Part shown: piece after piece, positions 5,987 to 39,240 of the stretch
Layout: each line of letters begins with the position of its first letter
How positions within the stretch are numbered: the stretch's first letter is position 1
Source: Natrinema pallidum DSM 3751
Lineage (GTDB): Archaea > Halobacteriota > Halobacteria > Halobacteriales > Natrialbaceae
Reading direction: 5' to 3'
Assembly (NCBI RefSeq): GCF_000337615.1
Contig: NZ_AOII01000109.1
Span: forward strand, 1-39,240
Length of the DNA: 39,240 nucleotides
Notes under the pieces: model-generated
The model's input: only the letters and a program-made list of their open reading frames with translations
The model's database searches: none
What the model was told of the DNA's origin: nothing
Program-made: the position numbers and the translations under genes

Positions 5987-6334
5987 ATGGAATACGTATA
6001 CGCTGCACTCATCCTGAACGAATCGGACGAAGAGATCAACGAAGACAACCTGACGAACGTGCTCGACGCTGCCGGCGTCGACGTCGAGGAGTCCCGAGTC
6101 AAGGCGCTCGTCGCCGCGCTCGAGGACGTCGACATCGACGAGGCAGTCTCCGAGGCCGCTGCCGTCCCCGCTGGCGGAGCCGCCGCAGGCGGTGCCGCGG
6201 GTGGCGAGGCCGCTGCCGATGACGGCGGCGAGGAAGAAGAGGCCGAAGAGACCAGCGACGTGCCGGACACGACGGACGACGACGACGATGACGACGAGGC
6301 CGACGGCGAGGGTCTCGGCGAACTCTTCGGATAA
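5987..6334 (+). CDS. rpl12: Large subunit ribosomal protein L12 (P1/P2 type)
   Basis: A 115-residue archaeal stalk protein, last gene of the L1-L10-L12 operon. The N-terminal dimerisation helices begin [10 protein letters not shown]. An Ala/Gly-rich hinge lies near residues 62-76, followed by an Asp/Glu-rich tail ending GLGELFG that contacts elongation factors. An SD-like GGAGG (5974-5978) lies just before the start. The gene ends 6 bases before a hairpin and T-rich terminator. Confidence 0.97.
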
Positions 6335-27141: not shown

Positions 27142-27450
27142 TTACGGCGGGCCGACGCTGCTGATCGGCTCCGGTGGGCCGCCGTAGAAGACGACGCCGA
27201 TCAGCACGGTCAGGACGAACATCCCGACCCACATCGATGTCGTCAGGCCGACGAGGTAGCTTACGCCGGTCAATCCGGCTTTCGTGTCGCGTGGTTTCCC
27301 GAGGAACCAGGCCGCGAGCATGATGTAGACCGGGACCAGAATGACGGCGAAGATGATCCAGGTCCCCTCGTTGGCGAAGCCGGTGAAGCCGGACGTGCCG
27401 TCGTAGCCGTGGTACAGGAGCGTCGAGAGGATCGTTTGCGTAGTACTCAT
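27142..27450 (-). CDS. Small membrane subunit of the Fe-S/NrfD complex
   Basis: A 102-residue protein with two or three hydrophobic helices (about residues 28-50, 60-92), ending VFYGGPPEPISSVGPP. Its start overlaps the NrfD stop by four bases (27447-27450), so it is the third gene of that operon and probably a subunit or assembly partner. I do not recognise a named family. It has no cofactor-binding motif that I can see. Confidence 0.75.
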   Translation of the reverse strand: MSTTQTILSTLLYHGYDGTSGFTGFANEGTWIIFAVILVPVYIMLAAWFLGKPRDTKAGLTGVSYLVGLTTSMWVGMFVLTVLIGVVFYGGPPEPISSVGPP

Positions 27451-28799
27451 GCTTCCACCTCCGGTTCGGTCGCTTCCTCACTGTGCTCGTGCTCACCGCG
27501 CAGGTGTTCGATCGCGTGGAGTTCGACCACCGGAACGAGCTTCGAGAGGTTGAGGAATAAAAGTACGACCAGCGCAGTCGTTCCGACGAGCGACAGCCAT
27601 TCGATCGCGCTCGGGAAGTAGGATCCGGGCGTGTTGGCGTAGATGTTGAAGTGCGGGTCCATGAACCCTTCGACGACGAACAGGACCTTCTCGGTCAGGG
27701 TACCCATGAGCACCGCACAGCTGACGACGAGCGCCCGTTTCTTGCTGAACAGCGACGGGCGGATTCCCTGCGCGAAGATGTACACGAGCGAGCCGAAGAT
27801 GAGCCCGATCGCGATACGGTAGAGCGGGTGGGCGATCTTCGCTTCGGCCGCGTGTGCCTTGTCGAGCGGACCGAGGAAGATGCCGTTGAAGACGGCCTGA
27901 AGCTGGAACCAGAGGAACAACAGGGTGAAGAACCCGAGCCACAGGAGCAGCCCGCGGAAGATGTCGTCGGTGATGATGTGGTCCCAGTCGTAGGCGCGGC
28001 GGAACCCATAGGAGATGATGGTCACGCCGCTGATAGCGGACATCAGTGCGATACTCAGGAACATCGGCCCCTGAATCCCACCGCTCCAGGCGGGCATCGC
28101 CGGCAGCAGCGAGAACAGCCACGGAATGACGCCGCCGTGAAGCAGGAGCGGGGCCATGATGATGACCGCCGCCGCGAGCCACCAGACCATCCGCTGGATG
28201 ACCTCGTCCTCTCGCTTGGTGTAGCCGATCGTCATGATCTTGTAGATCGGCTCGAACATGTCGGGGAGATCGTCACGCAGGCGGTTGATGTCGTACCGGA
28301 GCGTCAGGCCGAGGTAAGTGGCCGACAGCACGAAGTACGCCGTAATGACCGTCACGTCCCACACCAGCGGCGAGTTGTTGACCGTGATGTGATAGTGACC
28401 GATGATGCTCGTGACCATCCGGTCCGGACGGCCCATGTGGACGATAATGTAGAAGCCGGCGGCCGAGAGGCCACCGATCGTCGTCATCTCCGCGATTCGG
28501 GCGATCGGCATGTATCGGTCCATGCCGAGCAGGCGAACGGCGGCCGAGAGAATGATGCCGCCGTGAGCGACGCCGACCCACCAGATGAACGCGCCGATGT
28601 ATAGCCCCCAGGTCGAACCGCCACCGCTGCCCCAGTCGCCGAGGCCGGTGACGACCAGTCCCTTCTGGAGCTGGTATCCCCAGGCGACGATGAAAGCGAG
28701 GAGGCCGATGGCAGCGATGCCGTAGACCAGGAAGTACTTCTTGGTGAGCGTGTTGATCGGGCGAAGGATGTCCGCTTCGGACGGCTCCTTCGTGCTCAT
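27447..28799 (-). CDS. NrfD/PsrC-type polytopic membrane subunit
   Basis: A 450-residue integral membrane protein with about nine or ten helices. Typical NrfD features are the first helix FLVYGIAAIGLLAFIVAWGYQLQ, then FIWWVGVAHGGIILSAAVRLLG, IVHMGRPDRM, and the FLWFQLQAVFNGIFLGP region. Proteins of this family bind quinol and pass electrons to a ferredoxin-like partner (DmsC, PsrC, ActC types). It overlaps the Fe-S gene by four bases upstream (ATGA, 28796-28799) and the small membrane gene downstream, so the three are translationally coupled. No molybdopterin subunit is encoded nearby. Confidence 0.88.
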   Translation of the reverse strand: MSTKEPSEADILRPINTLTKKYFLVYGIAAIGLLAFIVAWGYQLQKGLVVTGLGDWGSGGGSTWGLYIGAFIWWVGVAHGGIILSAAVRLLGMDRYMPIARIAEMTTIGGLSAAGFYIIVHMGRPDRMVTSIIGHYHITVNNSPLVWDVTVITAYFVLSATYLGLTLRYDINRLRDDLPDMFEPIYKIMTIGYTKREDEVIQRMVWWLAAAVIIMAPLLLHGGVIPWLFSLLPAMPAWSGGIQGPMFLSIALMSAISGVTIISYGFRRAYDWDHIITDDIFRGLLLWLGFFTLLFLWFQLQAVFNGIFLGPLDKAHAAEAKIAHPLYRIAIGLIFGSLVYIFAQGIRPSLFSKKRALVVSCAVLMGTLTEKVLFVVEGFMDPHFNIYANTPGSYFPSAIEWLSLVGTTALVVLLFLNLSKLVPVVELHAIEHLRGEHEHSEEATEPEVEA

Positions 28800-30460
28800 A
28801 GCGACACCCCGTCAACACCGCCGACGGTTTCCTCGTCGAGGAGATCCTGCCGTTTGTCGACGAGACCGATGTCCTCGTACTTCGTCGGTCCTTCGACCTG
28901 CTCCGCTTCCGGTCCGGGCTGCTCGCCGAGATAGGTGACGTTCGGGTGCGTCCCGACGTCCTCGAGCAGCTTGAACGAGTTCGGCTTGCCGGTGTACTGC
29001 TGGATGCGGAACCTGGCCTGGCGCTCGCTTCCGTCGCCGAGTTGCAGTTGGGTGATGGCCTCGTCGGTCTCGAGGTCGACGTACTGTTCGAAGGCGTCGA
29101 CGGAGGCGACGATTTCCTGTTCCTTGCGGAGGATGCTGTTGTTCTCCTCGTCACCGGGCTCGGTGCGATCGCTGACGAGTTCGATCGCCTTCATGATCGA
29201 GAGGGTCTCCTGGTCGAGGTTCTCGAATTTCTCGAGGGCGGACTCGATGTCGTCGTCCGAGCTGAGCGTCTCGTCGATCGTCTCCGGCGACGGAACGCCT
29301 TTGCTCGCGTCGGTGTGCTCGTCCGAGAGACGGATCACGGCCCGGCTCTTGCTCGGATGCTCGCGGTGCTGGGACGGATCGCTCTTCTCGTCCTTGACGT
29401 TCCCGAACTGGATCGCGTTCGGCGGGCAGGCCGACTCGCAGGCGCTCGTCCCGACTTTCTCTTCGCCCTGTTGACCGTCTTGCATGGACGGACACATCGT
29501 ACACTTGCTCATCACACCACGAGGCGCGCGGCTGTCGACCCAGCGCTCGCCGTGTTCGTACTGGGCGTGTGTGATCTCGTCGGGACTGTCGACATCGCGA
29601 TCCTGTGCCTTCGGGATGTCCTCGTAGTCCGTGTGGGGTTCGTCCCACTGGAAGTAGTTGACGCCGTAGGGACAGGCGACCTGACAGTAGCGACAGCCGA
29701 TACAGACGTCGTAGTCGGTCAGGACGAGCCCGTCCTTGTCACGCGTATGCCGGGCCGTCGTCGGACAGACCTTCTCACAGGGGGCGTCCGTGCAGTGCTG
29801 GCACGGCCGCACGAGCATGTTGAAGTCGCTCCCCATGTTGAAATCGGAGCTGTAGACGCCGGTGTCGGTACCCTCCTCGTGGCCCTCGTGGAGTTCGTCC
29901 TCCCAGGCCATGACGTACATCCAGTTGACGCCGGCGTCGAGGTCGTTCTCCTGGGTACAGGCCGACATACAGGTCAGACAGCCGTCACAGCGCTCGAGGT
30001 CGATCGTCATCCCCCACTGCGTGTCGCTGTGTTCGGTGGTCTCCGAGTGGCCGCCCTCGGCGGAGAGACTCTCCATGGGACCGTCTCGGGTAGAACTGAA
30101 CGCACCCATCCCGACGGCCGCTGCACCGACGCCCATCTTCTTCATCGTCTCGCGACGCGTCTCCTCGCCGTCGCCGTCGAAGGCACCGAGCATTCTGGAG
30201 GCGGTTCCCTTGGCCTCCTCCTGTGCTGCCTCGTAGGCTTCTTTGGTTGGACGCTCGTCCTCGCCGAACTCCTCCATCACGGCCTCGTGATGCTTCTCGT
30301 GGAATTCGGCCTCGGAGAGTTCGCCCTTAGTGACCCGCATCGCGTCCTGGGCCATCTCCATACCGAGATCACTATCGTACTCGGTATCGTCGAGCATCGT
30401 CTCGAGTTCGTCCTCCCACTCGTCCCCGAGCGGGTGGAATGATTCATCGTCCGTGCTCAT
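28796..30460 (-). CDS. Four-cluster [4Fe-4S] ferredoxin-type electron transfer subunit
   Basis: A 554-residue protein. The acidic N-terminus (about 1-100, with LSEAEFHEKHHEAVMEEFG) precedes an internal Tat-like signal TRRETMKKMGVGAAAVG near 101-117. Four cysteine sets follow: 158/161/164/168, 220/223/228/232, 253/256/259/263 and 320/323/341/345, the pattern of DmsB/PsrB/ActB-type subunits with four [4Fe-4S] clusters. A long C-terminal region (about 350-554) has no motif I recognise. It heads the operon with NrfD and a small membrane subunit. The Tat-like signal within the chain suggests an extracellular cluster domain. An alternative-complex-III-like quinol oxidase role is inference. Confidence 0.88.
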   Translation of the reverse strand: MSTDDESFHPLGDEWEDELETMLDDTEYDSDLGMEMAQDAMRVTKGELSEAEFHEKHHEAVMEEFGEDERPTKEAYEAAQEEAKGTASRMLGAFDGDGEETRRETMKKMGVGAAAVGMGAFSSTRDGPMESLSAEGGHSETTEHSDTQWGMTIDLERCDGCLTCMSACTQENDLDAGVNWMYVMAWEDELHEGHEEGTDTGVYSSDFNMGSDFNMLVRPCQHCTDAPCEKVCPTTARHTRDKDGLVLTDYDVCIGCRYCQVACPYGVNYFQWDEPHTDYEDIPKAQDRDVDSPDEITHAQYEHGERWVDSRAPRGVMSKCTMCPSMQDGQQGEEKVGTSACESACPPNAIQFGNVKDEKSDPSQHREHPSKSRAVIRLSDEHTDASKGVPSPETIDETLSSDDDIESALEKFENLDQETLSIMKAIELVSDRTEPGDEENNSILRKEQEIVASVDAFEQYVDLETDEAITQLQLGDGSERQARFRIQQYTGKPNSFKLLEDVGTHPNVTYLGEQPGPEAEQVEGPTKYEDIGLVDKRQDLLDEETVGGVDGVSL

Positions 30461-30612: not shown

Positions 30613-30628
30613 TACGAACATGTTCGTA
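30613..30628. promoter_or_regulatory. 16-bp perfect palindrome, best copy of the locus motif
   Basis: TACGAACATGTTCGTA is a perfect palindrome in the gap between the HTH_10 regulator stop and the Fe-S/NrfD operon. It contains the core CGAACATGTTCG found in variant form before several neighbouring genes. A TATA-like GCTATTCTC on the minus strand (about 30604-30612) lies directly next to it, which would give the operon a leader of roughly 110-120 nt. I propose it as the operon operator. Confidence 0.6.
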
Positions 30629-30700
30629 AGTACAAATAGCGCGGTCCGAAACGTGGCCGGTGATCGGACGGGGAACGCGGTTCCTGCCCAACGGCCCTAT

Positions 30701-31375
30701 TTAGGTGCTCGCGAGTTCTTCCTCGATCGGGTCGCCGCTGTCGACGCTCGGAAGGTCCTCGACGAATCGTTTGATTACCGCCTCTTCGGCGCGGTGTAGC
30801 GTTTCGCTACAGGTCGACTTGGCGATATCGAGGTGGTCGGCCAGCTCCGTCAGCGAGGACCGCCGCGGGGTGTCGTAGTATCCTTCGTCGACCGCCGCGA
30901 CGATGACCTCGAGTTGGCGCTCCGAGAGCAGTTGGCTCTCGTGGAGTCGCTCGCGGACGTGCTCGATCCGATACTGCAGTCCGAAGTGCTCGAGTTGTTC
31001 GGCGAGTTCGGCGAGACGCTCACGGGAGCCGGTCACGTCGATCCTCGCCTCGCCGTCCTGAATCTCGACCGGGAGTTCGATGGGCATGCCGGACGCTCGA
31101 GAGGAGAACAACAGGAGCGGTGCCGTCGTCTCGAAGTGAACCGTCGCCTCGTTATCGCTCCACTGGGCGAGCGTGATTTCGGTCAGCTGCGGGTGGTCGT
31201 TCATGGCTTCGATCACGTCGGGGACCACCGGCCCGGCGATCCGGACGAGAGCGAAGCCGGACTCGGAGCCGGGCACGGCCGCGAGAACCCGGAACGTCGA
31301 TTCGGGGTACTCCGTCGAAATCTGCTGAATCCAGACGTTCTCGGGCATCGTGAGTGTAAGGGTTGCTTGAGCCAT
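30701..31375 (-). CDS. DmsR/Bat-like HTH_10 transcriptional regulator
   Basis: A 224-residue regulator. The C-terminal HTH_10 domain (about 150-212: LLSERQLEVIVAAVDEGYYD, RRSSLTELADHL, STCSETLHRAEE) is the bacterio-opsin-activator type DNA-binding domain. The N-terminal 140 residues form the sensor-like region found in DmsR-type proteins, with no obvious cofactor motif. DmsR activates DMSO respiration genes in Halobacterium. This gene sits between a DmsB/DmsC-like operon and DUF2249 genes. TATA-like CTATATACC (about 31398-31406) gives a leaderless start at 31375. Copies of the locus motif lie on both sides of that TATA box, suggesting autoregulation. Confidence 0.88.
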   Translation of the reverse strand: MAQATLTLTMPENVWIQQISTEYPESTFRVLAAVPGSESGFALVRIAGPVVPDVIEAMNDHPQLTEITLAQWSDNEATVHFETTAPLLLFSSRASGMPIELPVEIQDGEARIDVTGSRERLAELAEQLEHFGLQYRIEHVRERLHESQLLSERQLEVIVAAVDEGYYDTPRRSSLTELADHLDIAKSTCSETLHRAEEAVIKRFVEDLPSVDSGDPIEEELAST

Positions 31376-31376
31376 A

Positions 31377-31388
31377 CGAACGTGTTCC
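31377..31388. promoter_or_regulatory. Locus motif copy between TATA box and regulator start
   Basis: CGAACGTGTTCC is a one-mismatch version of the palindromic core. It lies between the TATA element of the HTH_10 regulator (about 31398-31406) and its ATG at 31375, covering the expected transcript start. A protein bound here would repress the gene. Confidence 0.45.
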
Positions 31389-31413
31389 GTTCAAACCTAT
31401 ATACCGGTGGCTA

Positions 31414-31425
31414 CGAATATGTTCG
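31414..31425. promoter_or_regulatory. Locus motif copy upstream of the regulator TATA box
   Basis: CGAATATGTTCG, identical to the copy at 34775-34786. On the minus strand it ends 38 nt before ATG 31375, just upstream of the TATA/BRE region. That is the activator position also seen before the three DUF2249 genes. Confidence 0.55.
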
Positions 31426-31459
31426 GTGGGTTCTCGTTCCGCGGGAAGACCGAGAGCTG

Positions 31460-31471
31460 CGAACACGTTCG
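31460..31471. promoter_or_regulatory. Locus motif copy before the first DUF2249 gene
   Basis: CGAACACGTTCG, with perfect five-base arms, ends 39 nt before ATG 31511. It is immediately followed by the short inverted repeat GGACG-AA-CGTCC (31472-31483). The intergenic region is shared with the divergent regulator. Confidence 0.55.
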
Positions 31472-31510
31472 GACGAACGTCCAACCGATCCCGGATCGAA
31501 CGCGGAACCG

Positions 31511-31738
31511 ATGGCAACGAAATCAACGGACCGAACGCTGGATGTCAGAGAGATCGACGGCCCGCCGTTCGACGACATCATGGCCGCCCTCGAGGATCTC
31601 GAGACGGGGCAGCGGCTCCGGCTGATCGCCCCGTTCGAACCGAAACCGCTCTACGAGGTGCTCGACGACCGCGGGTTCAACCACGAGAGCGAGAAACGCG
31701 ACGGCGGCGTCTGGCACGTCCGTATCGACCGTACGTAG
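31511..31738 (+). CDS. DUF2249 domain protein, copy 1
   Basis: A 75-residue single-domain protein, MATKSTDRTLDVREIDGPPF..., with the DUF2249 pattern. An N-terminal LDVREIDxPP strand and a helix (ALEDLETGQRLRLI) lead to the conserved FEPKPLYEVLDDRGF loop, and the last strand is VWHVRI. The domain has a TusA/SirA-like fold. It is often found near denitrification and NO-related genes in bacteria and haloarchaea; its biochemical role is unknown. Two more copies follow. It is divergent from the HTH_10 regulator, with a locus motif 39 nt before the start. Confidence 0.85.
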   Translation: MATKSTDRTLDVREIDGPPFDDIMAALEDLETGQRLRLIAPFEPKPLYEVLDDRGFNHESEKRDGGVWHVRIDRT

Positions 31739-31752
31739 CGACGGGCCGTTCC

Positions 31753-31764
31753 CGATCATGTTCG
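31753..31764. promoter_or_regulatory. Locus motif copy before the second DUF2249 gene
   Basis: CGATCATGTTCG differs from the palindromic core at one base. It ends 40 nt before ATG 31805, the same spacing as at the neighbouring promoters. Confidence 0.5.
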
Positions 31765-31804
31765 TGCGAAAGTCGATGTGGGGCTCGATCCGAGTACGGA
31801 CTGC

Positions 31805-32038
31805 ATGACACGACTCGATGTCAGGGACATTCCGCCGGTGAACCGCCATCCCAGGATCCACGACGAGTTCGACGCCCTCGAGCCGGGCGAATCGTTGACG
31901 ATCGTCAACGACCACGAGCCCAAACCGCTGTTCTACGAGTTCGAGGCCGAGGTCGACAGCTTCGACGCCGACGGCTACGAGGTCGAACAGGTCGCTCCCG
32001 ACGAGTTCGTCGCCACGTTCCCGAAAACGGAGGCCTGA
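31805..32038 (+). CDS. DUF2249 domain protein, copy 2
   Basis: A 77-residue paralogue of the genes at 31511 and 32115. It has LDVRDIPPVNRHPRIHDEFDAL, LEPGESLTIVNDHEPKPLFYEFE and VAPDEFVATFPK split across the same strand-helix-strand plan. The DHEPKPL segment is the conserved loop; its His is shared with many DUF2249 proteins, whereas copy 1 has Phe there. ATG 31805 is preferred to the upstream GTG 31778 because the motif lies at the same distance as in the other copies. It is probably transcribed from its own promoter, as the 66-base gap to copy 1 holds the motif. Confidence 0.85.
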   Translation: MTRLDVRDIPPVNRHPRIHDEFDALEPGESLTIVNDHEPKPLFYEFEAEVDSFDADGYEVEQVAPDEFVATFPKTEA

Positions 32039-32064
32039 TCGCGTCGTCCGGGCAGCCGATCGAC

Positions 32065-32076
32065 CGAACACGTACG
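32065..32076. promoter_or_regulatory. Locus motif copy before the third DUF2249 gene
   Basis: CGAACACGTACG differs from the copy at 31460 by one base. It ends 38 nt before ATG 32115. A weak TATA-like AGAGATAG (32082-32089) lies between motif and start. Confidence 0.45.
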
Positions 32077-32114
32077 GGAGCAGAGATAGCCGCCACCGGA
32101 CCGAACCAATACCC

Positions 32115-32378
32115 ATGCAATCAGCATCCTCGATCGTCGACCGCACCGATGCACCGGCTGACCGACCGCAGGAGACGATCGATGTCCGGTCGGCCGGCCC
32201 GCCGGAGCCGCTGCAACGGACGCTCGAGACGCTCGTCGACCTGTCCGACGAGACGGTTCTCGTCCAGCGAAACGACCGCGTTCCCCAATTCCTCTTTCCG
32301 AAACTGGACGACCGCGGCTACAGCTACGAGACGGTCGAACGCGACAACGATGTCGTGACCGTCATCTGGCGTGGCTGA
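32115..32378 (+). CDS. DUF2249 domain protein, copy 3
   Basis: An 87-residue third paralogue with a slightly longer N-terminus (MQSASSIVDRTDAPADRPQE). The domain core runs TIDVRSAGPPEPL, then LVDLSDETVLVQRNDRVPQFLFPKLDDRGY (the conserved loop here reads RVPQFLF rather than EPKPL) and VVTVIWRG. Loss of the KPL part suggests the three copies have separate roles. It lies 90 bases upstream of the fused heme synthase gene. Confidence 0.8.
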   Translation: MQSASSIVDRTDAPADRPQETIDVRSAGPPEPLQRTLETLVDLSDETVLVQRNDRVPQFLFPKLDDRGYSYETVERDNDVVTVIWRG

Positions 32379-32468
32379 CGCCGTCGTACGACGGGCAAAT
32401 CGGCCGACGACTGACCGGTCGCAGGGTCACGGGAACGGGGACGATCACGGCCGGGAGAGTACGCAGGG

Positions 32469-33899
32469 ATGACAACGGAACTCAGCCGACGACGGTTCGC
32501 GGACGTACTGGCAGCGACGGTAATCGCGGCGTACGTCCTCGTGGCGCTCGGGACCGCCGTCTCGACGACCGACAGCGCGGCCGCCTGCAGTGCGTGGCCG
32601 ACCTGTGCTACTGATCCGATCGTCGGTTTGGCGACCGGCGACACCCTCCTCTACTGGGGCCATCGAGCGGCAGCGCTCGTGGCCGGCTGCCTCGTTCTCG
32701 CGTCCGGATTCGCCGCCCGCCGAGTCGAAGTCGGCCGTCGCGTGACCGGCCTCGTCGGCTGTGCGCTCGTCCTCTTTCCCGTCCAAGTCCTCCTCGGCGC
32801 GACGATCGCCGTCGGCGGCCCGTCGATCGCGGGCCCCATCCACCTCGCGCTCGCGATGGCCATCTTCGCCTGTCTCCTCGTCGCGCTCGTGTTCACTCTT
32901 GAAGACGGGACGCTCGAGGCGGAACCCGGCCGGATGACCCCGACGCCAGATGCATCGACTGCCGGCGACGACGCCGGCGGGGCCCCGCAGTCGACTCCGC
33001 AGCCGACCGGCCGGATCGCCCGGCTCAAACGAACGACCGGCGCGTACCTGACGTTGACCAAACCGCGGCTGATGTGGCTGCTCTGTCTGGTCGCGCTGGC
33101 GGGGATGGGGCTGGCGACGCTCTCCGGTGCGGCGCTCGAGCCGTCGACGGCGCTCGCGACGCTCGCCGGCGGCGTCCTCGCGATCGGGGCGAGCGGGACG
33201 TTCAATCACGTCTACGAGCGCGACCGGGATCGGCGGATGGACCGGACCTCGGATCGGCCGCTCGTCCACGACCTCGTTCCGGCGCGCAATGCCGTGGCGT
33301 TCGGGGTCGGGCTCACGGTCGGTTCGATGATCGTTCTCCTGACGTGGGTCAACGGGCTCGCGGCGGTGCTTACCCTCGCGGCGATCGGGTACTACGCTGT
33401 CCTCTATACGGCAGTATTGAAGCCGAACACGGCCTGGAACACGGTGTTAGGCGGCGGTGCGGGAGCGTTGCCCGCGGTCATCGGCTGGGTCGCCGTCACC
33501 GGGCGCGTCGGACTTCCCGCCGTCGCCCTCGCGGCGGTGATCTTCCTGTGGACGCCCGCTCACTTCTACAGCCTCGCGATCGCGTATCGCGACGACTACG
33601 CACGCGGGGGCTTCCCCATGTATCCGGTCGCCGAAGGCGTCGCCGCGGCGCGTCGCCACGTCGCGTTCTACCTCGGTGCGACGCTACTCGCCGCCAGCGG
33701 TCTGGGCTGGGTGGCCGGGCTCGGTTGGGTCTACGGAGTCACGTCGATCGCCCTCGGCACCGTCTTCCTGCGTTCGGTGGTCCGCCAGTTCCGCCGGCCG
33801 ACCGACGAGGTCGCACTGCGGTCGTTTTACGTCTCGAACTACTACCTCGGGGCGATCCTCCTGGCGATCGTCCTCGAGACGCTCGTCATCGGGAGCTGA
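32469..33899 (+). CDS. ctaB: Fused heme A synthase half (CtaA-like) and heme O synthase (CtaB)
   Basis: A 476-residue membrane protein. Residues about 1-150 form a four-helix CtaA/COX15-like half with the Cys pair ACSAWPTC and possible heme-ligand His in LLYWGHRAAALVAG and GPIHLALAMAIF. A polar linker (about 150-185) joins a UbiA-type farnesyltransferase with NHVYERDRDRRMDRTSDRPL (Asp-rich prenyl-diphosphate site) and the second loop YRDDYARGGFPMYPV. CtaB turns heme B into heme O; the CtaA part would help convert it to heme A. The two-domain layout occurs in other haloarchaea. The gene serves the downstream heme-copper enzyme. Confidence 0.9.
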   Translation: MTTELSRRRFADVLAATVIAAYVLVALGTAVSTTDSAAACSAWPTCATDPIVGLATGDTLLYWGHRAAALVAGCLVLASGFAARRVEVGRRVTGLVGCALVLFPVQVLLGATIAVGGPSIAGPIHLALAMAIFACLLVALVFTLEDGTLEAEPGRMTPTPDASTAGDDAGGAPQSTPQPTGRIARLKRTTGAYLTLTKPRLMWLLCLVALAGMGLATLSGAALEPSTALATLAGGVLAIGASGTFNHVYERDRDRRMDRTSDRPLVHDLVPARNAVAFGVGLTVGSMIVLLTWVNGLAAVLTLAAIGYYAVLYTAVLKPNTAWNTVLGGGAGALPAVIGWVAVTGRVGLPAVALAAVIFLWTPAHFYSLAIAYRDDYARGGFPMYPVAEGVAAARRHVAFYLGATLLAASGLGWVAGLGWVYGVTSIALGTVFLRSVVRQFRRPTDEVALRSFYVSNYYLGAILLAIVLETLVIGS

Positions 33900-33994
33900 T
33901 CGGACGAGCTGCAACGGGACATCGTCGACGATCGAACGAGCGGCCCGGTGCCGCGTACTGAGCCGCGACGGACAATCGCCTTTTAGTCCGCTCC

Positions 33995-34006
33995 TGAACA
34001 TGTCCG
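33995..34006. promoter_or_regulatory. Weak locus motif copy before the cupredoxin gene
   Basis: TGAACATGTCCG has two mismatches to the core. It lies 8 nt after a TATA-like TTTTAGT (33981-33987), the same arrangement as the copy over the regulator start. It is 119 nt from ATG 34126, so the gene would have a long leader. This is the least certain copy. Confidence 0.25.
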
Positions 34007-34125
34007 GCCCCTCTCTTACCGCCCGAGAACCGTCGGTTCGGTTGAACTAGCTAGCCCCGTTAGACGAGCGTGAGGGCAGCGACTCGAGACCCGTTCGATC
34101 GATCGCCACGCCGGATCACAGACCC

Positions 34126-34704
34126 ATGACACATCTCTCACGCCGTACCGTACTCCGCTCGACCGCCTGTACAGCCGGCCTCGCGTTGGCGGGCTGCCTC
34201 GCCGAGGGCATCGATCAGCCGGGCGACGAGCAGCCCCCGGAAAACGCCGGGGAACTCGGCACTCCCGCCGAAGTGGTCACGATCACGGCGAACTCCCGGC
34301 CGTATCCCGAGTTCGACCCACAGATCGTCCACGTCGTTCCCGGCGGGACCGTCGAGTGGCTCGTCGAGACCGGTCGCCACGACGTTACCGGCTATCATCA
34401 GGGGAGTCACGGCCCTCACCGAACCCACGACGGCGTCGAACCGTGGGGAAGCGATCGACTGACCGGGGTCGGCTCCGAACACGAACACACATTCGATACC
34501 GAGGGCGTCTACGACTACGTCGACACCCAGCAGGTCTGTACCTCACACGAAGTCGCCGGGAACGTGGGCCGAATCGTCGTCGGCTGGCCCGATCCCGCCG
34601 ACGAGCCTGCGATGGCCGACCCGCAGCCGGAACTCCCGTTACAGGTCGTCAACGCGATCGAACTGTTCAACGAGGAAACCCGTCCCGTACTCGAGGAGGC
34701 ATGA
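34126..34704 (+). CDS. Halocyanin-like cupredoxin, Tat lipoprotein
   Basis: A 192-residue exported copper-protein candidate. The signal has LSRRTVLRS and lipobox ALAGC (Cys 24). The cupredoxin domain has His 85 in GRHDVTGYH, Cys 138 in QQVCTSHEVAG and His 141, the three strong type 1 copper ligands. The axial Met expected in CxxHxxxGM is Asn 146, so the copper site may be three-coordinate or have an unusual potential. Halocyanins carry electrons to heme-copper oxidases on the outer membrane face. Here it sits upstream of SCO and the oxidase genes, fitting such a role. It could also be a copper chaperone. Confidence 0.82.
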   Translation: MTHLSRRTVLRSTACTAGLALAGCLAEGIDQPGDEQPPENAGELGTPAEVVTITANSRPYPEFDPQIVHVVPGGTVEWLVETGRHDVTGYHQGSHGPHRTHDGVEPWGSDRLTGVGSEHEHTFDTEGVYDYVDTQQVCTSHEVAGNVGRIVVGWPDPADEPAMADPQPELPLQVVNAIELFNEETRPVLEEA

Positions 34705-34774
34705 ACGGCGGCGTCTCGGGTCGGCCGTCACGCCTCGAGCCGTCCGGCGGACACGCCGTTCGGCGGGCAACCGT

Positions 34775-34786
34775 CGAATATGTTCG
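34775..34786. promoter_or_regulatory. Locus motif copy before the SCO gene
   Basis: CGAATATGTTCG within TCGAATATGTTCGA, identical in core to the copy at 31414. It ends 66 nt before ATG 34853. A TATA-like CTTTACC (34820-34826) lies at leaderless distance from the ATG, and another, TTCTATCG (34791-34798), lies closer to the motif. Confidence 0.5.
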
Positions 34787-34852: not shown

Positions 34853-35599
34853 ATGAGCCGCACAGATCAGACTCTCGATCGACGAACGGTGCTGCGGACA
34901 GTGGGCGCAGCGGCCATCGGCGCGTCCGTCGCGGGGTGTTCGGCCTTGAACAGCGCCGAGAGCGACGGCGACCGGCCCGTCCTGCCACCGCCCGAAAACC
35001 ACGACCGGATCAAGGAATCGGGGATACCACACCCGATTTACGGGGAGGGGATCCCCGAAGCGACGGTCCCGGCACCGCTCCATGACCGCTCGATTACGAC
35101 CACGGCGTTCACCGGCGACCGTCACCTGATGCTGACGTTCGTATACACCAGCTGTACGACCGTCTGTCCGGGACTGACCGCCGCCCTGCGGCGAGTCCAG
35201 GCCGACGCGACCGATCGCGACTACGCGGACGAGATCGCGTTCCTCCCGATGACGTTCGATCCGGAACACGACACGGCGGCCGTCCTCGAGTCCTACGGGA
35301 CGGACCACGGCGTCGATTTCGACGCCGGGAACTGGTACTTCCTCCGGCCGGAAACGCCCGACGACGCGAAAGCCATCGTCCAAGACACGTTCGGCGTCGC
35401 GTTCGAGCAGGGCGACGAGTCGTCCGACGACGGGGACGAGATGGGTCACGACGACATGGCTCACAGCCGACAGTTCGTCCACACCTCCCTGATCCTACTC
35501 GTGAACAAGGAGGGCGTCGTCGAGCGGGCCTACACCGGCGGCTCTCCCGGCGGGAACGAAATCGTCGAGGACGCCCGGACCGTCGTGGAGGGGTGGTGA
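34853..35599 (+). CDS. SCO1/SenC family copper chaperone, Tat lipoprotein
   Basis: A 248-residue protein with signal DRRTVLRTVGA and lipobox VAGC (Cys 29). The thioredoxin-like SCO domain has the copper-binding CTTVC (Cys 101, Cys 105) and the distal His 210 in QFVHTSLILLV. A Met/His-rich insert MGHDDMAH (about 197-204) just before the His may bind extra copper. SCO proteins insert copper into the CuA site of oxidase subunit II, which is encoded 1.5 kb downstream. It is followed after three bases by the thioredoxin gene. Confidence 0.92.
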   Translation: MSRTDQTLDRRTVLRTVGAAAIGASVAGCSALNSAESDGDRPVLPPPENHDRIKESGIPHPIYGEGIPEATVPAPLHDRSITTTAFTGDRHLMLTFVYTSCTTVCPGLTAALRRVQADATDRDYADEIAFLPMTFDPEHDTAAVLESYGTDHGVDFDAGNWYFLRPETPDDAKAIVQDTFGVAFEQGDESSDDGDEMGHDDMAHSRQFVHTSLILLVNKEGVVERAYTGGSPGGNEIVEDARTVVEGW

Positions 35600-37094: not shown

Positions 37095-37637
37095 ATGACA
37101 TCACCGATCAAACCCCCGGACGGTAACTGGTGGGACCAACCCGTCAACAGGCGCGAATCGATCTGGCTCGGGCTCGGCGTCGGCTGGTCGCTGATCCTCT
37201 TCGGCTGGATGAGCGCCTGGACGCGGGTCGGCGACCAGAACCCCATCGGCGAGACCTTTCGCGTCGAGGCCGAGGAGTACCGCGAGAAGATGGCAGACTA
37301 CAAGGAGCGCGCCGAGGACACCGACGACGGACTCGTCCCGCCGGAACAGGACGTCTATCTCCAGGCGATGCGGTTCCAGTGGGACGGTGCGCCGGTCGTC
37401 CTCGAGACGGGGACGGAATACGACTTCCACCTCAACTCGATGGACGTCCAACACGGCTTCTCGCTCCGACCCGAGGACGCGCTGAGCAAGCAGATCAACC
37501 TGCAGGTGCTGCCCGGCTACGAGTGGGTCGTGCCGATGACATTCGACGAACCCGGCACCTACCACATCATCTGTAACGAGTTCTGTGGGCAGGGCCACCG
37601 GAGCATGCACGGCACGATCGTCGTGGAGGAGGGATAA
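37095..37637 (+). CDS. Heme-copper oxidase subunit II with CuA site
   Basis: A 180-residue subunit with one membrane helix (about 23-42), a charged linker (about 55-80) and a cupredoxin domain. The binuclear CuA ligands are complete: His 120 (MDVQHGF), Cys 160, Glu 162, Cys 164, His 168 and Met 171 in CNEFCGQGHRSM. It takes electrons from a small carrier such as the cupredoxin at 34126 and passes them to subunit I. The compact one-helix form matches ba3-type enzymes. The gap to subunit I is two bases. Confidence 0.93.
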   Translation: MTSPIKPPDGNWWDQPVNRRESIWLGLGVGWSLILFGWMSAWTRVGDQNPIGETFRVEAEEYREKMADYKERAEDTDDGLVPPEQDVYLQAMRFQWDGAPVVLETGTEYDFHLNSMDVQHGFSLRPEDALSKQINLQVLPGYEWVVPMTFDEPGTYHIICNEFCGQGHRSMHGTIVVEEG

Positions 37638-37639
37638 CG

Positions 37640-39240
37640 ATGGCACACAGACTGGACGTTCTCGGCCTGTTCGACAACGAGTACCGCGATGACGGCTTCC
37701 GGACCTGCTCCGTGACGGGGCTCGAGGTCCACCGTTCCGTCGATAACCACGTCAAGCTGTTCGGGCTCACGGCGGTCGTCGCCCTGCTGTACGGTGGTAT
37801 CTTCGCCTTCACCGTCGCGATGACCCGCTGGGAGGTGATCGGGCTGCTCGATCCCGGGGCCTTCTACACCCACCTGAGTCTGCACGCTTGGAACCTGCTG
37901 ATCTTCTGGATGGTGTTCATGGAGATCGCCATCCTCTACGTCGGCGGTCCGATGGTGCTTGGCAGACGGCTGCCGTTTACGAACGTCGCGAAGGCCGGCT
38001 GGCTCGTCATGGCCGGCGGGGCCGTCCTGGTCAACTACGCCATTTGGACCACCGAGGCACCCAACGAGGCACCGCTGTTGACGGCCTACGTTCCGATGCC
38101 GATCTCGCCGCTGTTCTACGCGGGTGCAGTGGTCTTCATTCTGGGCACGGTCGTCGCGGCGCTGCCCTTCTTCGCGACGATGTGGTTCGAGAAGCGCGAG
38201 AACCCCGGCAAGACGCTGCCGCTGGTCAGCTTCGCCGCATTCGTCACGTCGATCATCGCCGTCGAGGCGCTGGTCGGCGGCCTGCTGGCGTTCGGCCCCG
38301 CCCTGCTGTGGCGACTCGAGATCATCGAGTGGTGGGACGCGGCCTGGTACCGCCAGATGTACTGGATCATCGGCCACGGCACCCAGCAGATCAACCTCGT
38401 GGCGATGATCGCGGTCTGGTACTTCCTGACCCACGTCGTCGCGGGCGCGGAGGTCGCCAGCGAGAAGGTCTCGCGGACGGCCTTCATCCTGTACCTGTTC
38501 TTCATCAACCTCGGGGCGGCACACCACCTGCTGTCCGACCCAGCCGTCTCGACCGGCTGGCGGATCTGGAACACGTCCTACGCGTTCTACGGGGCGACGT
38601 TCGCGAGCCTGATCCACGCGTTCGCCATCCCGGCTGGCCTCGAGGCCGGCCGGCGCAAACGCGGGAAAGGCGGCGGCCTGTTCGGCTGGCTGACATCCGC
38701 GCCGTGGTCGAATCCCGTGTTCTCCTCGACGATCTTCTCGATCATCCTCTTTGGCTTCCTCGGGGGGATTACGGGCGTCATGATGGGGCAGCTCCAGCTC
38801 AATATGACCTGGCACAACACGTTCGCGACCGTCGGACACTTCCACGGCACCGTCGTCCTCGGGACCACGGTCGCGTTCATGGGCCTGGTCTTCTTCGTGA
38901 TCCGGACGATGTTCATGCGCCAGTATATTTCCGAGCGGCTGGCCTCGATCCAACCGTACTTCTACTCGGCCGCGATGGGCGTGGCCGTCCTGATGATGAT
39001 GTACGTCGGCATTCTCTACGGGATCCCGCGCCGGACCGCCGAGGTCGTCGAGAACATCCCCGGCACCGAGTTCAGCCTCTCGGCCGCCGCGCCGCTGTTT
39101 GCCGTCTTCGGGATCTTCGCCCTGCTCGCGATCACTGGCGGGGTGTTGTTCGTCCTCGTAGCCGTCGGCTCGCTGGTCTTCGGTGACCGTGTCGAGAACG
39201 CGGCCGACAACGCCGACCTCGTCGCCGACGGCGGGCTCGG
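37640..39240 (+). CDS. Heme-copper oxidase subunit I, active-site Tyr replaced by Gln (3' end outside window)
   Basis: The first 533 residues of a B-type-like heme-copper enzyme. Heme ligands are His 82 (SLHAWNLL) and His 400/His 402 (VGHFHGT). The CuB ligands are His 246 and His 295/296 (GAAHHLL), and the 49-residue spacing equals that of Thermus ba3 (233 to 282). Four residues after His 246, where ba3 has Tyr 237 (HPxVY), this protein reads HGTQQ, so the cross-linked Tyr is Gln 250. The position of the cbb3-type Tyr in the next helix is Ile 289. Oxygen reduction, NO reduction or both are possible. The gene continues beyond the window. Confidence 0.9.
   Translation, partial: MAHRLDVLGLFDNEYRDDGFRTCSVTGLEVHRSVDNHVKLFGLTAVVALLYGGIFAFTVAMTRWEVIGLLDPGAFYTHLSLHAWNLLIFWMVFMEIAILYVGGPMVLGRRLPFTNVAKAGWLVMAGGAVLVNYAIWTTEAPNEAPLLTAYVPMPISPLFYAGAVVFILGTVVAALPFFATMWFEKRENPGKTLPLVSFAAFVTSIIAVEALVGGLLAFGPALLWRLEIIEWWDAAWYRQMYWIIGHGTQQINLVAMIAVWYFLTHVVAGAEVASEKVSRTAFILYLFFINLGAAHHLLSDPAVSTGWRIWNTSYAFYGATFASLIHAFAIPAGLEAGRRKRGKGGGLFGWLTSAPWSNPVFSSTIFSIILFGFLGGITGVMMGQLQLNMTWHNTFATVGHFHGTVVLGTTVAFMGLVFFVIRTMFMRQYISERLASIQPYFYSAAMGVAVLMMMYVGILYGIPRRTAEVVENIPGTEFSLSAAAPLFAVFGIFALLAITGGVLFVLVAVGSLVFGDRVENAADNADLVADGGL

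Follow-up and report, generated by a model that had tools for sequence, protein, structure and literature searches.

In haloarchaea, the palindrome CGAA-X4-TTCG is known from the promoters of denitrification genes (PMC5746218), and it is essential for the activity of the nirK promoter of Haloferax volcanii (Hattori 2016, cited in PMC5746218). In Haloferax mediterranei, mutations in a nearly identical semi-palindrome significantly lowered the activity of the nos and nor promoters (PMC10062603). Among the genes that the element precedes are nor, nirK, nos and those of the DUF2249 and bacterioopsin-activator-like types. The regulated genes listed in PMC11218638 include those for DUF2249 proteins and a bacterioopsin-activator-like regulator; E6P09_00735 is the regulator gene that has the motif in its promoter, and two bacterioopsin-activator-like regulators have already been suggested there as candidates. 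NarO has been proposed as the activator of the denitrification promoters of H. volcanii, and the same paper describes the regulators of haloarchaeal denitrification as still unknown and NarO as not found in H. mediterranei (PMC10062603). Here, we analyzed a stretch of 39,240 nucleotides (nt) from Natrinema pallidum DSM 3751 (NZ_AOII01000109.1; hereafter, the window), in which copies of this palindrome accompany a respiratory locus. We propose that CGAA-N4-TTCG is probably the operator of a haloarchaeal nitrogen-oxide/low-oxygen regulon and that it is read by the HTH_10 family of a 224-amino acid (aa) regulator, P0001, encoded in the window. The presence of the motif at denitrification promoters was already known; the likely reader family and the strict placement of the motif are new. 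In a literature search covering few subscription journals, we found no paper that tied the motif to an eNOR locus or tested the binding of this family.

Comparison with described systems

The copies in the window resemble the denitrification element (CGAA-N4-TTCG, CGAAYATDKTYG) in that the same palindrome occurs several times per cluster and stands before DUF2249 genes, and the copy at norB of the same genome lies 68 nt before the ATG, compared with 66 nt for the published nor promoter. The palindromic consensus is matched exactly, at promoters of nitrogen-oxide genes (the eNOR-type locus, norB and a nosL-linked paralog of the regulator). However, the gap between motif and ATG is 38–40 nt in four promoters of the window, whereas it is 66–79 nt at nor, nos and nir of H. 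mediterranei, and the present locus belongs to the Natrialbaceae and comprises an iron-sulfur (Fe-S)/NrfD pair, three DUF2249 genes and an eNOR-type reductase.

P0001 resembles NarO and DmsR, HTH_10 proteins without PAS or GAF domains, in its C-terminal HTH_10 domain and in its link to anaerobic respiration. NarO reportedly carries the cysteine motif CXnCXCX7C, whereas this motif is not present in the protein sequence of P0001, the single cysteine of which (Cys189) lies within the helix-turn-helix (HTH). The HTH sequences also differ, being GISKSALSQRLSAAES in the NarO/DmsR-type protein of this genome and DIAKSTCSETLHRAEE in P0001.

As in the DrpA/DUF2249 genes of Thermus denitrification clusters (PMC11218638), small DUF2249 proteins are encoded at a nitrogen-oxide cluster; unlike those genes, the three in the window stand in a row, each with its own motif copy. 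eNOR is defined by a Gln at the position of the cross-link Tyr, with a cupredoxin subunit II encoded just upstream (PMC8756737). In the window, a CuA-type subunit II likewise directly precedes subunit I, and because Gln250 of subunit I fits this definition, the locus most likely includes an eNOR-type nitric oxide reductase, although its class is assigned here by sequence only.

Copies of the motif in the window

A previous sequence-only reading of the window described a repeated palindromic element marking the promoters of the respiratory locus. We located all of its listed copies at the expected positions, and positions 30613–30628 do form a perfect 16-base pair (bp) palindrome (Table 1). Within the 4,174 bp spanned by these copies, CGAAYRYRTTCG occurs exactly four times; three further copies have one mismatch on the better strand, and a weak copy at 33995, with a gap of 119 nt to the ATG, has two. 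Since the whole 3.9-Mb genome (3,915,814 bases) has 26 exact sites (YRYR form), four sites in 4.2 kb are far above expectation: 0.03 copies were expected in 4,174 bp (Poisson P about 2e-8, for a region picked after being seen). When up to two mismatches were allowed, the window contained 39 matches compared with a mean of 21.4 (standard deviation 5.2) in shuffled sequences, and this number was reached in 0 of 100 shuffles. The only further site in the window with at most one mismatch (6054–6065) lies within an open reading frame (5987–6334). The earlier remark that other intergenic regions lack copies is accordingly accurate for the window but not for the genome, in which further copies precede norB and other genes. 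The sequence-only reading had also placed the end of the core 38–40 nt before the start codon in four promoters, and we measured 38, 39, 40 and 38 nt for the regulator and the three DUF2249 genes, respectively.

Table 1. Motif copies, regulator and neighboring genes, in window coordinates
Feature	Position	Strand	Remarks
16-bp perfect palindrome TACGAACATGTTCGTA	30613..30628	.	exact core at 30615; core end 154 nt upstream of the Fe-S gene
Second regulator-promoter site	31377..31388	-	one mismatch; directly before ATG; possible self-limiting site
Main regulator-promoter site	31414..31425	-	exact; 38 nt before ATG; TATATA ~10 nt downstream
First DUF2249 promoter site	31460..31471	+	exact; 39 nt before ATG
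Second DUF2249 promoter site	31753..31764	+	one mismatch; 40 nt before ATG
Third DUF2249 promoter site	32065..32076	+	one mismatch; 38 nt before ATG
Site upstream of SCO1 gene	34775..34786	+	exact; 66 nt before ATG
HTH_10 protein P0001 (224 aa), proposed motif reader	30701..31375	-	Pfam HTH_10 PF04967, 6.2e-18
DUF2249 protein 1	31511..31738	+	Pfam PF10006
DUF2249 protein 2	31805..32038	+	Pfam PF10006
DUF2249 protein 3	32115..32378	+	Pfam PF10006
NrfD-type membrane subunit	27447..28799	-	Pfam NrfD
Fe-S subunit	28796..30460	-	Ferredoxin_N and DsrO-, HybA- and DmsB-like clusters; NCBIfam scores all below curated cut-offs
Protein with heme o synthase (CtaB) domain from residue 192	32469..33899	+	TIGR01473, 3e-84, residues 192-470
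Plastocyanin/halocyanin-like copper protein	34126..34704	+	Pfam PF00127; NCBIfam matches below cut-off
SCO1/SenC protein	34853..35599	+	
CuA-type subunit II	37095..37637	+	Pfam COX2; CuA-like CNEFCGQGHRSM by eye
eNOR-type subunit I, runs off the window	37640..39240	+	Gln250 at the Tyr of ba3 GHPIVY, by alignment

Conservation at orthologous promoters

A search with the regulator yielded 31 loci, of which 29 (L026–L054) encoded full-length orthologs in Natrialbaceae, while two distant partial ones (L055 and L056) were excluded; the orthologs of N. altunense and N. gari were 98–99% identical. Starts were placed by tblastn, and the 130 nt upstream were compared, leaving out rows with a match starting after residue 25 or with less than 100 nt of upstream sequence. 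As a control for motif counts, we used 11 permutations of the half-site.

The exact motif CGAAN4TTCG was present in the regulator promoter of 25 of the 29 orthologs, in 17 of the 18 orthologous promoters of the first DUF2249 gene (in 16 at that gene's own site, –51/–50) and in 16 of the 18 of the second; because the regulator and the first DUF2249 gene are divergent, their upstream stretches share sites. At the third DUF2249 gene, 2 of 18 promoters carried the exact motif and 14 a copy with at most one mismatch, and the SCO gene had the exact motif in 3 of 5. The permuted half-sites gave counts of 0 or 1 each at these motif-bearing genes, and the highest control anywhere was 5/28, at the Fe-S gene. 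This gene showed no motif within 130 nt upstream in the orthologous loci, and an exact core, the counterpart of the site at 30615, was present at –153 to –167 in 21 of 28. The exact motif was absent from the orthologous promoters of the genes for heme o synthase (0/5; one mismatch in 1/5), the copper protein (0/6), CoxII, CoxI and TlpA (0/3 each) and Mrp (0/26). The copy at 33995 was rejected as a real site, since orthologous promoters showed no conservation there (0/6 exact; 1/6 with at most one mismatch).

The density of the motif in intergenic DNA was 8-fold higher than that in genic DNA at the ortholog loci and 5-fold higher at loci of distant family members. An equal motif density and a lack of conservation at orthologous promoters, both named in advance as contrary to a promoter element, were therefore not what we observed.

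Association of the motif with the regulator family

Members of the regulator family were detected at E values up to 1e-20 in 354 of the 391 genomes of the class. As a distant set, we examined the last 60 among the matches listed (46–60% identity), together with flanking sequence of at most 4 kb per side. The exact motif lay within 200 nt upstream of 26 of these 60 genes, compared with 0/60 for each of the 11 permuted half-sites, and within 150 nt of the gene's own start in 25. Altogether, 54 of 93 members carried the motif in their own promoter (25/29 orthologs, 25/60 distant members and 4/4 for the own-genome paralog plus three named plasmid loci), and in 40 of these 54 (18 orthologs, 18 distant members and 4 others) a copy started 45–60 nt before the ATG. 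On a tree of 94 proteins (the 93 members and the window protein), the presence or absence of the motif changed 7 times, compared with 30 changes when the labels were shuffled. We also compared HTH_10 genes within the own genome, in which 21 of 29 HTH_10-like rows were testable (six had no tblastn row and two no start; one of the 21, L083, is a weak match). Exact CGAAYRYRTTCG was found within 150 nt of an in-frame start at both family members and at 0 of the 19 other genes.

Across the class, CGAAYATRTTCG was present in 335 of 391 genomes, compared with 26 for the reversed pattern (a hand count, and a weak control because this pattern contains rare codons). The presence of the motif was linked with that of the family: it occurred in 318 of 354 family-positive and 17 of 37 family-negative genomes, a comparison confounded by relatedness and genome completeness; among the family-negative genomes, 17 unlisted ones and their site counts were obtained by hand comparison of two lists.

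The family is haloarchaeal and is also found at nirK/qNOR-type and nos clusters. For example, the paralog in the own genome (contig C113) adjoins nosL; a Natrinema pallidum member adjoins nosL, followed by ABC-transporter and NosD-domain genes. In Haloferax larsenii, the family member is flanked by a NorB-type gene on one side and a multicopper oxidase gene, which by context encodes NirK, on the other; a DUF2249 gene is nearby. Similarly annotated genes occur near the member of Halobellus limi, and the neighborhood of E6P09_00735 resembles that of the H. larsenii member. At one distant locus (L131), a copper nitrite reductase gene (TIGR02376) has the motif 133 nt upstream.

An NCBIfam scan returned no family for P0001, and a PDB sequence search a single match (E 0.084). 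The structure predicted from the protein itself and 21 of its 29 orthologs had a middling mean pLDDT (predicted local distance difference test) of 72.5. When this model was compared with the PDB, its C-terminus resembled sigma-region-4/LuxR-like HTH domains and its N-terminal part Ta1207 (Z 7.0, root-mean-square deviation 4.5, 127 residues aligned); because all Z scores were below 8, we claim no sensor fold.

Promoter layout and proposed mechanism

Around the 60 distant members, we collected 122 motif-gene pairs, counting at most two genes per site, taking start codons from a simple gene caller and including related species. The gap was exactly 38 nt in 45 of these pairs and 37–40 nt in 56. 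Genes that follow the motif at 38 nt at the distant loci include those for a copper-ATPase, a ThiS-like protein, a cupin and, by eye, DUF2249-like proteins. In these relatives, the sequence downstream of the motif frequently resembles GGAACACTTAC, by eye a weak transcription factor B recognition element (BRE)/TATA. Archaeal transcription starts about 25 nt after the TATA box, and a site next to the BRE is a usual position of archaeal activators. With this start distance, these promoters would give almost leaderless transcripts, and the BRE would directly adjoin the motif.

The neighboring HTH_10 protein is the best candidate reader, since the motif precedes the family's own genes class-wide and adjoining genes at a fixed 38 nt. 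We predict that P0001 binds CGAACATGTTCG. A homodimer of this protein, or of the nos-linked paralog, would bind CGAA-N4-TTCG (mostly CGAAYRYRTTCG here), with the site ending 38–40 nt before the ATG of four nearly leaderless promoters. Because the site would lie directly upstream of BRE/TATA, the bound protein could help the basal factors and thereby activate the three DUF2249 genes as well as the regulator's own gene, presumably in response to nitric oxide or low oxygen. Sites at other distances may act on the pair of Fe-S and NrfD genes and on the group of genes with SCO beside the eNOR-type reductase. Through the second site, at the start codon of the regulator, high levels of the protein may turn the gene off. 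Among members with the main site, 14 of the 18 orthologs and 6 of the 18 distant ones also had a start-codon site (at most one mismatch, –18 to –10); among members without the main site, 6 of 11 orthologs and 1 of 42 distant ones did, and permuted half-sites gave at most 2. The suggestion that the element is an activator site for the neighboring HTH_10 protein is partly supported: the placement is activator-like, the element is conserved at orthologous promoters and this protein is the best candidate binder. The label 'DmsR-like' attached to that protein is not retained (see below).

On a wider scale, we see about an even chance that a single HTH_10 family, the one lacking the NarO/DmsR cysteines, acts throughout Halobacteria as the master regulator still sought for nitrogen-oxide genes. 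Through a rigid plan (palindrome, 38 nt, leaderless ATG), it would control denitrification enzymes and, along with them, DUF2249 proteins, cupins, a CGCGG-type modified peptide and a cytochrome-d1-type protein, with the start-codon site as a self-limiting element. Our analysis names one widespread family as the likely reader of a known denitrification motif, finds this motif at a locus that is not one of the classical nir/nor/nos clusters, and reduces the question to one protein and one 12-bp site. The 38-nt rule is quantitative and predicts further regulon members. In plain terms, the motif is probably a shared on-switch for genes that handle nitrogen oxides in salt-loving archaea, including the gene of its reader.

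Alternative readers and roles of the element

Several observations weigh against this proposal. In 35 of the 60 distant members, the 150 nt before the gene's own start lack an exact motif; 27 of these members form one clade of family f4. Moreover, 17 of the 37 genomes without a family match hold at least one site. The main regulator site (–50/–49) is exact in only 18 of 29 orthologs, and in five (L041, L043, L044, L047 and L048) the sole exact copy within 150 nt lies at –13. A clear TATA box (TATATA) is seen only in the regulator promoter, the looser CGAAN4TTCG precedes 3 of 19 unrelated HTH_10 genes of the own genome when any in-frame start is allowed, and the related sequences behind the motif counts are not independent. 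In the H. mediterranei mutagenesis, nir activity was lowered without significance, nar activity was not lowered and one nos mutation had no significant effect (PMC10062603). The regulator and the motif could both be targets of another protein, such as a 124-aa winged-helix protein of the Haloferax cluster. Near the members of the f4 clade without the motif, other genes nevertheless have it at a gap of 38 nt; self-regulation is therefore not universal.

The reader might instead be an HTH_10 protein of the NarO/DmsR type with CXnCXCX7C, the neighboring regulator being merely a target. We consider this unlikely, although NarO is the proposed activator in H. volcanii (PMC10062603), where the palindrome is essential for nirK (PMC5746218), and although the own genome has a protein of this type. 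The latter, encoded at C84:95008 (L069, 1081–1698) just upstream of a gene for a DmsA-like molybdopterin oxidoreductase, as judged by eye, has the cysteine motif and is likely the DmsR/NarO-type protein of this genome. No motif was found upstream of its gene, and P0001 lacks the cysteines, for which reasons we rejected the label 'DmsR-like' for P0001. NarO/DmsR-type proteins were detected in 124 of 391 genomes with one Cys-domain query, which may miss divergent members, compared with 335 for the motif; in the own genus, the numbers were 3 and 21 of 21 genomes, respectively. In addition, H. mediterranei uses the motif yet is reported to be without NarO (PMC10062603), and the HTH of the NarO/DmsR-type protein differs as described above. 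As a separate observation, the gene of one regulator-family member is immediately preceded by a Cys-domain match of the NarO/DmsR type (G033:C1:1169372-1169978).

That some other regulator reads the motif, such as the winged-helix protein encoded beside the Haloferax multicopper oxidase gene, appears quite improbable. Such palindromes would fit many regulators that bind as dimers, the H. larsenii cluster encodes an HTH_20/IclR-like protein (KU306_RS18200) and Halobellus limi has a similarly annotated small HTH gene; in the window, however, the HTH_10 protein alone has a DNA-binding domain among ten proteins scanned, other window genes being read by eye. We give a similarly low weight to the element being a repressor operator. 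A filled site at the start codon of the regulator would block transcription, but the main site lies upstream of the expected BRE/TATA, and mutating the same motif lowered nos and nor activity (PMC10062603). An origin of the copies by chance or codon use, with CGAA and TTCG favored in the coding DNA of GC-rich genomes, is hardly credible for the main sites, for which we rejected it on the basis of the shuffles, the permuted half-sites, the conservation at orthologous promoters and the intergenic excess; the fixed spacing also opposes it. It may apply to the copy at 33995. Genic CGAAN4TTCG does exceed the permuted half-sites (51 compared with 0–26 at the ortholog loci; 91 compared with 0–18 at the distant loci), so that single exact copies genome-wide are weak evidence, and 6 of 8 examined CGAACGCGTTCG sites lie inside predicted genes.

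Sixteen members of family f4 (L150–L152, L154, L155, L162, L165–L168, L172, L175, L177, L178, L180 and L183) carry LQRV behind the recognition region, where LHRA would otherwise stand, and lack the motif in the 150 nt next to their start.

Genes of the locus and further sites in the genome

The Fe-S gene was conserved with the regulator in 28 of the 29 loci and the DUF2249 genes in 18. Because eNOR subunit I or II was scorable at only 3 of the 29 loci, we did not count eNOR in the conserved core. eNOR occurs in many Halobacteria, often misnamed as an oxidase (PMC8756737), and the best database matches would indeed name 37640–39240 a cytochrome c oxidase subunit I, with Gln in place of the cross-link Tyr. 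No recognised catalytic subunit adjoins the Fe-S/NrfD pair (27447–30460). The protein encoded at 32469–33899 is a fusion in which the CtaB domain follows an N-terminal membrane part; by eye only, this part resembles CtaA (heme A synthase).

Of the 26 exact YRYR sites in the genome, 11 correspond to CGAACGCGTTCG; of the eight examined, six lie inside predicted genes and two do not (the other three are on C77, C81 and C107). Among the remaining 15, three are at no credible promoter (C14, C34:29536 and C113:51953, the last intergenic according to the gene caller but inside a transporter gene as read by eye), and two are loose, one lying 250 nt before a CoxII-type gene (C67:6542) and one at a ferredoxin gene with an uncertain start (C42:46208). 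For the sites on C88 and C26, promoters were recognised by looking for start codons at fixed distances. Besides the norB copy (contig C41), a motif ends 40 nt before the ATG of the nos-linked paralog (C113), and another lies 38 nt before a cupin gene. A copy is also found 45 nt before the gene for a cytochrome-d1-domain protein (L003, C34:39477). At a further locus (L006; C88, ~225735–226298), two copies precede genes for a ThiS-like protein, a 460-aa protein without a Pfam match and a CGCGG-family peptide (TIGR03995), with gaps of 43, 38 and 38 nt.

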